DNA of 64,000 nt from Caulobacter sp. S45 (GTDB taxonomy: Bacteria; Pseudomonadota; Alphaproteobacteria; Caulobacterales; Caulobacteraceae), in NCBI RefSeq assembly GCF_009765965.1, contig NZ_LMUL01000010.1, positions 233,294 through 297,293 of the forward strand, in the 5' to 3' direction. Shown here one piece after another: positions 58,795-60,245 of the stretch. A program made the position numbers and the translations under genes. The first letter of the stretch is position 1, and each line of letters begins with the position of its first letter. The notes under the pieces are model-generated. The model saw nothing but the letters and a program-made list of their open reading frames with translations, searched no databases and had not been told where the DNA came from.

Positions 58795-59139
58795 CTACGC
58801 TTCGATGGCTAGGCGGATTTCCGGCTTCAAGGTGAGCCACAATGAGGACTCGGCATTCACGCCGAAGCGAACCACTAACATCTCTCGCCCTCGCTCCTGC
58901 TCGATTTCCACCGACGAGAAGCTATTGAGATCGGCGCGCGACATTTCCCGCCCATTCTGGTTCAAGCTAATGCTTAAGGAGCTGTAACCGGGGCTAATGG
59001 TGAAGCTGATGAAATCATGCCCTACCTGAAACGTGTATGACAGAGTATTATAAGGCCATGGCACATCGGCGTCTTTGACATCAGGTTCGCATTCGAAAAA
59101 GAATGCGAATTCATCTTCGGAGGGTGTCGGGACGGGCAT
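58795..59139 (-). CDS. Low-GC hypothetical protein next to the insertion sequence
   Basis: A 114-residue acidic protein (begins MPVPTPSEDEFAFFFECEPD). Base composition, about half G+C by eye, and codon use differ clearly from the neighbours, a sign of recent transfer. No signal or membrane segment; alternating patterns (HDFISFTISPGYSSLSISL, MLVVRFGVNAESSLWLTL) suggest beta structure. Small acidic proteins like this include immunity proteins, but nothing here proves it. Its start is 58 bases from the IS end and has no clear ribosome binding site. It converges on the polymerase gene with 16 bases between stops. Confidence 0.6.
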   Translation of the reverse strand: MPVPTPSEDEFAFFFECEPDVKDADVPWPYNTLSYTFQVGHDFISFTISPGYSSLSISLNQNGREMSRADLNSFSSVEIEQERGREMLVVRFGVNAESSLWLTLKPEIRLAIEA

Positions 59140-59196
59140 GATTAAAGAAGGTCCAGGCGTTTCAGCGAATGTGATGATGGCGGGCCGATTGTTTTA

Positions 59197-59216
59197 GGCC
59201 GTGAACTCATAAACGA
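59197..59216 (+). repeat. Left terminal inverted repeat of the IS
   Basis: Begins GGCCGTGAACTCATAAACGA. It matches the right end in reverse complement at most positions, with the shared core ACTCATAA. Confidence 0.7.
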
Positions 59217-59218
59217 GG

Positions 59219-59410
59219 TCAGGCTGCCGGGTCAGCGAGATTGGTGTTTTGGCTGATGGTCCAGCCTGCTCGTCGGAGTTCCTGGAGGACGACCCAGGCG
59301 ATGTAATCGTCACTTGGGGTAGGCTGATCCGGCTTTGGGTTTTTGCGGGCTTTATCGATGGCAGCTTCGATAACGGCGAGTATGGGTTCGTAGTCGCTGT
59401 AGTCGGTCAT
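59219..59410 (-). CDS. Small passenger ORF inside the IS
   Basis: A 63-residue acidic protein (MTDYSDYEPILAVIEAAIDK...). GCGAGGG lies 5-6 bases before the ATG, a good ribosome binding site, and the ORF lies between the left inverted repeat and the transposase, reading out of the element. It has a helical N half, a Pro-rich linker (NPKPDQPTPSDD) and a second helix (YIAWVVLQELRRAGW). It is transcribed towards the low-GC gene next door. No family is known to me; possible roles are a transposition regulator or a cargo protein. Confidence 0.6.
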   Translation of the reverse strand: MTDYSDYEPILAVIEAAIDKARKNPKPDQPTPSDDYIAWVVLQELRRAGWTISQNTNLADPAA

Positions 59411-59478
59411 GCTGCCCTCGCTCCCCCCGTGCTATGTACCCTCTTCGCAGGCGCACGCGATCATGATTCAGCGTCGTC

Positions 59479-60245
59479 ATGAGCCGATACGACCTGACCG
59501 ATTTCGAGTGGAGCGTGATCGAGCCGCTCTTGCCCAACAAGCCCAGAGGCGTGCCGCGCGTTGACGACCGTCGCGTGCTGAACGGCATCTTCTGGGTGCT
59601 GCGATCCGGTGCGCCATGGCGCGATCTGCCCGAGCGCTACGGTCCGCGCACCACCTGCTACAACCGCTTCGTACGATGGCGAAAGGCAGGCGTTTGGGAC
59701 CGGCTGATGGACGCTATCACCGCCGCCCACGAGGGCGACATCCAGATGATCGACAGCACCTCCGTTCGCGCCCACCAGCAGGCCGCGACAGCAAAAAAGG
59801 GGGTGCAGATCACTGTCTCGGTCGATCACGCGGCGGGCTCACGACCAAAATCCACGTCGTCGTTGACGCGCAGGGCCTCCCGATCCGGCTTGGCCTAACA
59901 CCGGGTCAGGCGCACGATGGGCGGATCGCCGACACGCTGCTCGACCACCTCGGCCCGCGCACCATCGTGCTGGCCGACAAGGCCTATGATGCCGACCGCG
60001 TCCGCGAGCTGATCCAGGACCAAGGCGCCACGCCCAACATCCCGCCCAAGAGCAACCGGCGCTGGAAACCCTGCTTCAGCAAGCGGCTTTACCGCGAGCG
60101 CAACCTCATCGAGCGGTTCTTCTCCAAGCTGAAGCACTTCCGCCGCGTCGCCACCCGCTACGACAAGCTCGCCGCCAACTTCCTCGCCATGGTCCAGCTC
60201 GCCTCTATGCGCCTGTGGCTCCGTGCTTATGAGTCTACGACCTAG
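59479..60245 (+). CDS. IS5-family transposase made by programmed -1 frameshift
   Basis: Frame one (59479-59898) encodes 139 residues with the N-terminal DUF4096-type domain (MSRYDLTDFEWSVIEPLLPN) and the first catalytic Asp (IQMIDSTSVR). The frame then moves -1 at the heptamer A-AAA-AAG (59793-59799) and continues to 60245 with the second Asp (TIVLADKAYDADRV) and the Glu (NLIERFFSKLKHFRR), completing the DDE site. This is the usual arrangement in the IS427 group. The TAG stop at 60243-60245 uses the flanking TA target bases. The gene looks intact, so the IS may still be active. Confidence 0.88.
60223..60242 (-). repeat. Right terminal inverted repeat of the IS
   Basis: Read on the minus strand it begins GGTCGTAGACTCATAAGCAC, the counterpart of the left end. 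It overlaps the last codons of the transposase. Confidence 0.7.

Follow-up and report, generated by a model that had tools for sequence, protein, structure and literature searches.

A small gene as probable passenger in an IS5/IS427-type element of Caulobacter sp. S45, in a branch of elements whose slot mostly holds different genes

The insertion sequence examined here, in Caulobacter sp. S45 (contig NZ_LMUL01000010.1), raises a simple question: what is a 63-codon open reading frame (ORF), written on the opposite strand, doing between the left inverted repeat and the transposase of an element expected to carry a transposase and nothing else? The first-pass annotation of the window (the whole 64,000-nucleotide stretch of DNA that was analysed) offered two answers, a regulator of transposition or a cargo gene. 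We weigh both, together with other readings of the same locus, against the element itself, the homologues of the ORF (P0001 in what follows) and the slots of related elements.

An IS427-type element with a filled slot

Table 1. Features of the element and its immediate borders, in window positions
Feature	Position	Strand	Basis
Whole IS5/IS427-type element, 1046 bp	59197..60242	+	sequence, repeat scan
Flanking TA dinucleotides of the element	59195-59196 and 60243-60244		
Left inverted repeat (first 17 bp alone conserved in 55 elements)	59197..59214	+	repeat scan
Probable cargo ORF P0001, 63 aa	59219..59410	-	ORF list, sequence, homologues
Putative transposase promoter block (7 nt to ATG)	59443..59471	+	conservation over 55 elements
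Transposase frame A, DUF4096 domain	59479..59898	+	ORF list, Pfam
A-AAA-AAG slippery site, -1 frameshift	59793..59799	+	sequence
Transposase frame B, DDE domain (start of used part approximate)	59799..60245	+	
Right inverted repeat	60225..60242	-	repeat scan

The annotation had assigned the host element to the IS5 family, and the assignment was confirmed; the element looks intact. Elements of the IS427 group of this family have short terminal repeats and duplicate a TA target; the window element has imperfect 18-bp terminal repeats (GGCCGTGAACTCATAAAC at the left and GGTCGTAGACTCATAAGC at the right, read inward) with a TA adjoining each end. Its transposase is written in two overlapping frames, which when joined give 255 amino acids with Pfam matches to DUF4096 (E 1.4e-31) and DDE_Tnp_1 (E 6.6e-21). 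A run of five to eight A followed by G occupies the slippery-site position in 53 of 60 elements, and one relative carries the annotation “IS5-like element IS427 family transposase.” An earlier study (PMC3281130) ascribes to the IS427 group two frames that overlap and have a frameshift motif. The DUF4096 and DDE transposase, the overlapping frames, the short repeats and the TA are all present in the window element, and the one departure from the group is that it does not consist of a transposase only: it has a 282-bp slot with an ORF. To contain nothing but a transposase is the usual state of the IS427 group rather than a strictly defining one, and the slot-bearing elements are best taken as a variant inside the group, because they and the sister elements share one tree (see below).

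The element is present as a single copy in its own genome, where one other match covers 65 bp at 77%. Its neighbours are presumably genes for a polysaccharide polymerase and a phosphopantetheinyl transferase, and directly to its left (58795-59139) there is a 114-aa minus-strand ORF with a sub-threshold Pfam match only. No long match to the flank was found in 147 relatives. Nor was an empty site for this copy found when the left flank was compared with 148 relatives, nine of which matched it: its own genome, along the whole flank, and eight others, over no more than 22-61 bp.

The stop codon of frame B, TAG, is made up of the TA of the target duplication and the next base. In the wider sample the base triplet outside the right end is TAG or TAA in 53 of the 54 elements whose right end was found (it was not found in 6 of the 60), and the triplet is in frame for the transposase in 43 elements; C or T precedes the left TA in all 60. 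A target choice of the form YTAR thus supplies the transposase with its stop codon, through the TA duplication and the base that follows it.

Slot length and content among relatives

Relatives were sought in genome contigs with part of the transposase as query, and the best 80 of the 489 confirmed were used; with the window copy (L012) and the plasmid copies L009-L011, this made 84 loci. Sixty of these were assigned on the basis of a full transposase start and a left repeat adjoining TA, with up to four mismatches allowed in the repeat. The other 24 were dropped before the gaps were counted: 13 with an unaligned transposase start (L044, L045, L085, L089, L099, L100, L105, L108-L110, L114-L116), five without a repeat whose upstream sequence amounts to no more than 111-829 bp (L050, L064, L081, L084, L090), five whose transposase is complete and whose upstream sequence reaches at least 1.5 kb, with no left repeat found (L009, L010, L080, L112, L117), and L057, whose left repeat at 183 bp lacks the TA and which was restored for the tree. 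L115 seemingly has its transposase gene interrupted by about 2.5 kb of inserted DNA.

Of the 60 assigned elements, 55 have 236-2389 bp between the left repeat and the ATG of the transposase, and the remaining five have 57-75 bp. The left repeat has no more than two mismatches in 57 of the 60, and a left repeat arose by chance in 2 of 300 letter-shuffled stretches (up to 4 kb), so a chance left repeat is unlikely. In sister elements, sampled from two sets of whole genomes, the same gap measures 54-85 bp; this short gap was present in 13 of 29 loci of the first sample (L014-L019, L021-L023, L025-L027, L038) and in 14 of 29 of the second, taken from the class, with up to six repeat mismatches permitted and the other loci mostly partial or without a good repeat. 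The statement that elements of this group normally carry only the transposase therefore holds for the sampled sister IS427 lineages and fails for the branch of the window copy, where a filled slot is the rule.

Eleven further plasmid loci divide into nine with gaps of 342-652 bp and two (L125, L128) with 59 bp. Among the loci of the sister samples, L013 has a gap of 935 bp and is identical in sequence to L111. Two partial copies deserve mention: L032, a sister-type transposase (71% over 293 bp), has a left-repeat-like site 703 bp upstream and breaks the short-gap pattern, and L155 has a six-mismatch site at 757 bp, probably by chance. At the opposite end, the transposase match of L071, L104, L076 and similar loci stops at about 757 of 767, and their right repeat is not recognisable.

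Nearly all of the filled slots belong to one lineage. In a tree of 92 rows (the 60 assigned elements and 32 further loci picked for a complete start), 62 of the 65 rows with a filled slot, L057 with its 183 bp included, form a single clade (bootstrap 99, SH-aLRT 88, with the bootstrap not fully settled and long branches flagged, L132 among them). Directly outside the clade stands the cargo-free L092 (57 bp), followed by L097, L125 and L128 (57-59 bp). None of the 62 clade rows has reverted to a short gap, and a few of their slots are without an ORF. Three more filled slots, in L130, L131 and L132 (424, 424 and 506 bp), belong to transposases of 70-75% identity outside the main clade. They appear to be a second, independent filled-slot lineage, the tree needing two changes.

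What the slots hold is seldom shared, even between close relatives. Among the 55 elements, slot content is common to 3 of 3 pairs with transposases more than 95% identical, 1 of 35 pairs at 90-95%, 4 of 465 at 85-90%, 9 of 817 at 80-85% and 1 of 165 at 75-80%. Element matches number one in 15 of 20 genomes searched, two in four genomes and three in one. The three copies, in genome G690, have slots of 477, 412 and 532 bp, and pairs of copies are present in G699 (439 and 399 bp), G691 (314 and 508 bp) and G689 (578 and 423 bp); mutual homology was not found between the slots within G690, G699 or G691 (L074/L091/L106, L058/L118 and L063/L079, respectively).

The borders of the slot are simple. 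On its left side 17 bp of the repeat alone are conserved over the 55 elements, and on its right a conserved block starts 36 bp 5' of the transposase ATG; this promoter block aside, nothing is conserved within either boundary. The order in the block is a CTTTC-type box, 15 bp, CTGATTCA, 8 nt and the ATG, with the 15-bp spacing kept in 46 of 50 elements and the 8 nt in 50 of 53; in the window the -35-like box reads CTTCG and is followed by TGATTCAG. The block looks like a -35/-10 promoter that would give a leaderless transposase mRNA. The left repeat mostly reads GTGAAC where the right end reads GTAGAC; it retains a form of its own, so that the far end looks like an inherited feature and not like a random surrogate.

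The ORFs in the slot come close to these borders. Counted over 43 of 47 loci (L049, L086, L093 and L111 excluded), the stops of minus-strand ORFs lie at a median of 10.5 bp from the left repeat (n=24) and those of plus-strand ORFs at a median of 2 bp from the promoter block (n=19), with four plus-strand stops falling within the promoter block and a single minus-strand stop within the repeat. This distribution suggests that cargo is trimmed to the gene, and P0001, whose stop lies 5 bp inward of the 17-bp conserved left end, fits; part of the pattern may be selection, because the frames were hand-picked by eye.

An ORF was assigned in 47 of the 55 slots (49 ORFs, as L086 holds three), and all-against-all comparison sorted the 47 loci into 40 groups; choosing the frames by eye favours those that fill the slot, and codon-usage scoring with a window-trained model was uninformative. 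Pfam matches are available for 20 of the 47 loci, 15 above the curated cut-off and five from the tally at E<=0.01 only (four DUF6968 and the second Tdi1). The families with several members are DUF6968 (four) and the Tdi1 immunity C-terminal domain (two). Those seen once are DUF6980, RraB, DUF6714, Imm8, DUF1993, barstar, the integron cassette family Hfx_Cass5 (L083), SUKH-1, GNAT, alpha/beta hydrolase, DUF7919, AhpC/TSA and short-chain dehydrogenase. The largest slot (2389 bp, L086:1382-3432), with three genes that match the PhzF, MarR and LysE families, resembles a small transposon.

Four cargo groups match Imm8, Tdi1, barstar and SUKH-1, the last of which we take to be an immunity family; the other three are described in Pfam as immunity or inhibitor proteins. 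Plasmid annotations place a Tdi1-domain protein (L122) and an SMI1/KNR4 protein (L124) in the slot, and on the tree these two loci are close relatives of L071 and L096. Across 51 class genomes (summed size about 141 Mb), SUKH-1 was matched over the cut-off nine times and barstar three times; Imm8 and Tdi1 were not matched over the cut-off in these genomes, nor anywhere in either search. This rarity is a hint, the families having been picked after the cargo was viewed. Models of defence systems matched single members only, namely regulator-like families and one weak 4TM effector.

Another share of the content is less gene-like. Twenty of the 47 cargo ORFs have neither an above-cut-off Pfam match nor a relative in the comparisons made here (L061 and L088 match below the cut-off), and 26 of the 47 are no longer than shuffles at p<0.05, the other 21 being longer where about two are expected. 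Eight of the 55 slots are without a convincing ORF (L054, L058, L062, L069, L070, L072, L103, L104), L062 corresponding to the L068 type with a deletion and L104 to the L095 type in broken form. Taken together, the unmatched ORFs, the ORFs of chance length and the slots without an ORF mean that part of the slot content is decayed or non-coding.

Passenger gene and alternative readings

We consider it very probable that P0001 is a passenger gene, captured from the host lineage and carried in an IS427 branch with a slot that is usually for one gene. Ten pairs with shared slot sequence were compared with their flanks. In seven of them (L068/L071, L053/L066, L048/L079, L095/L101, L101/L104, L062/L068 and L054/L058) homology extends from 2-5 bp beyond the left repeat to a point between 7 bp before and 6 bp after the right edge; L071 and L104 end at most 66 bp from the right edge, without a recognisable right repeat. 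At least 1 kb of unmatched flank lies on each side in L053/L066, L048/L079, L095/L101, L062/L068 and L054/L058, the exception being a second transposase copy in L066. In the other three pairs (L043/L077, L098/L118, L070/L103) homology starts 60-81 bp inside the slot. Since the window copy is single, this bears on its relatives, among which the seven pairs argue that cargo moves with the element.

The second copy in L066 (L066:3283-5328) lies about 145 bp downstream of the cargo element and lacks a separate left repeat inside the span of the first. This tandem arrangement is a possible intermediate of cargo exchange.

A captured gene need not be useful, and P0001 could be real but inert baggage, picked up by accident, decaying and of benefit to neither element nor host. 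The slots without a clear ORF (8 of 55), the deleted and broken forms in L062 and L104 and the low copy numbers, with one match in 15 of 20 genomes, all lean this way. Selection on the cargo leans the other. For pairs borne on the element, dN/dS is 0.07 (L053/L066), 0.09 (L048/L079), 0.09 (L043/L077), 0.17 (L098/L118) and 0.26 (L095/L101), with 0.47 for L068/L071, where changes are few, and saturation in L077/L101. Values of 0.07-0.26 in five of six pairs indicate that purifying selection acts on several cargo genes while the element carries them. Genome-rare families occur among the cargo, and the short gap was never regained among the 62 clade rows. On balance we think the baggage reading unlikely.

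It may also be asked whether P0001 is a gene at all. The ORF is exactly as first annotated, on the minus strand with an ATG start, between the left repeat and the start of the transposase; the good ribosome binding site claimed for it comes down to a purine-rich stretch 5' of the ATG (GGGGGGAGCGAGGGCAGC-ATG), which makes a Shine-Dalgarno site plausible. Its length by itself is no evidence that it codes: dinucleotide shuffling of the 282-bp gap produced an ORF of at least 63 aa in 484 of 2000 rounds (0.35 in a second run), and a 77-aa ORF on the other strand overlaps it. Both facts would suit a non-coding left end whose open frame arose by chance, a reading that is nevertheless very improbable given the homologue in L004, from a genome of the same family. 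The two proteins are 61% identical, pS is 0.84 against a pN of 0.26, and the differences at codon positions 1, 2 and 3 number 22, 9 and 38 over 59 codons. Such a homologue with synonymous bias supports P0001 as coding; the selection signal comes solely from L004, which is a homologue not borne on an IS. A profile of P0001 finds one further genome (L165), and a structure model made from the single sequence has two helices with a mean pLDDT of 82.5.

Homologues are few. A single-sequence search found matches to P0001 in 6 of 299 host-family genomes, its own included, and in 1 of 385 genomes of the class, which is its own; two of the six, L006 and L008, are doubtful, as they sit within longer frames and are probably chance. 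The four-member profile matched 4 of 199 host-family genomes, again with its own, the matches other than L165 being the members of the profile. The ORFs of the distant relatives L005 (72 aa) and L007 (88 aa) stand alone, and that in L165, also stand-alone (73 aa), comes after what we take to be an scpA-scpB pair. L004 adjoins a transposase-like ORF, presumably of IS1595 type, and was discarded as a second kind of carrier, since terminal repeats were not seen in L004:1-2000. P0001 has no Pfam match up to E 10, zero matches among plasmid records and no confirmed relative among viral contigs. It matches a phage family without assigned function at E 0.006, and its solved-structure match (chain C3HR3_9r_shift4, best E 0.024) was taken as chance.

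The first-pass annotation's other suggestion, a regulator of transposition belonging to the IS, draws on the position of P0001, which is on the opposite strand, adjoins the left repeat and diverges from the transposase; extra ORFs in IS elements have been guessed to be regulators in one study (PMC3281130). We find this reading scarcely credible. A regulator is expected to be conserved with the transposase and P0001 is not, as a homologue is absent from all 54 other cargo-bearing elements compared. Related copies lacking the ORF, which the annotation had named as evidence against it, do exist: L048 and L052, with 91.7% and 91.4% transposase identity to the window copy, are examples, and they tell against the regulator. 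Related elements hold unrelated genes on both strands (24 minus and 19 plus, n=43), and P0001 homologues stand alone. These unrelated genes in the slots of close relatives support the cargo half of the original suggestion. Hardly any weight can be given to integron-like elements whose cargo would enter by a site-specific recombinase at a hidden attachment site rather than by transposition-tied events: the trimmed single-gene cargo and the Hfx_Cass5 family in L083 would agree with this, but the slot boundaries have no conserved sequence except the promoter block and an integrase is absent among the Pfam matches listed (25 of 43 families in one listing).

Under the passenger reading, a gene of the host lineage would have been taken into an IS427-group element, in the slot between the minimal 17-bp left repeat and the transposase promoter, to become P0001. 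As the self-contained promoter directly 5' of the ATG would yield a leaderless transposase mRNA, whatever lies between repeat and promoter could presumably be replaced without harm to transposition, and cargo useful to the host, such as immunity genes, may be what retains the element. A wider proposal is offered tentatively, as one we find possible but rather doubtful: that one IS427 lineage gained a replaceable slot once (and probably again in L130-L132) and swaps its cargo faster than its transposase diverges, through an active transposase-linked process. The result would be an integron-like shuttle of transposase, 17-bp end and leaderless promoter, with a preference for short genes of immediate use, orphan immunity genes among them.

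Known systems and the meaning of the slot

Insertion sequences that carry passengers are known as transporter IS, or tIS, according to two accounts (PMC7986276; PMC9330008), one of which gives a single tIS member for the IS6 family (PMC7986276). Some Paracoccus IS with extra ORFs, for which regulation was suggested, are described in another (PMC3281130), and passages of two more (PMC7371123; PMC6514802) contain nothing contrary to the cargo-slot picture. Like a tIS, the window element has a single transposase, short repeats and a gene probably unrelated to transposition; unlike the IS6-family tIS, the filled slot is here the state of a whole clade, mostly with different cargo, and the unrelated cargo in close relatives suggests that no particular cargo is required. 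With IS5/IS427 elements it shares the transposase domains, the overlapping frames with their slippery site, the TA duplication and the repeats, and it differs from the sampled IS427 sisters in the 54-85 bp that these have from left repeat to transposase.

Integron gene cassettes are compact single genes, many of them without assigned function, with an attC site at the 3' end. The slots resemble them in their compact single-gene cargo and have one cassette family in common with them, but no integrase is present among the matches listed and no common attC-like block was seen at the boundaries; the elements presumably move by their own DDE transposase. In one-ended capture of the ISEcp1 type, an IS mobilises neighbouring genes and the far end is a poor surrogate repeat, whereas 57 of the 60 assigned elements here have a good left repeat (at most two mismatches) as their far end.

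Among the matches listed from the open-licence literature, by their titles and abstract beginnings, no clade of IS5/IS427 elements that exchange their cargo was found. Because an IS is usually regarded as little but a transposase, the gene in the slot is recorded as a separate “hypothetical protein” beside it (as in L011, L127 and L129), and a clade with a near-always filled slot and mostly differing genes would thus be a transfer vehicle hidden by annotation. Repeat, cargo, promoter and transposase together form a readable record of gene capture, with the cargo-free sisters as the likely ancestral state, and they suggest a simple natural vehicle that carries single genes between bacteria. With Imm8, Tdi1, SUKH and barstar-like genes among the cargo, these elements may be a route by which orphan immunity genes spread.
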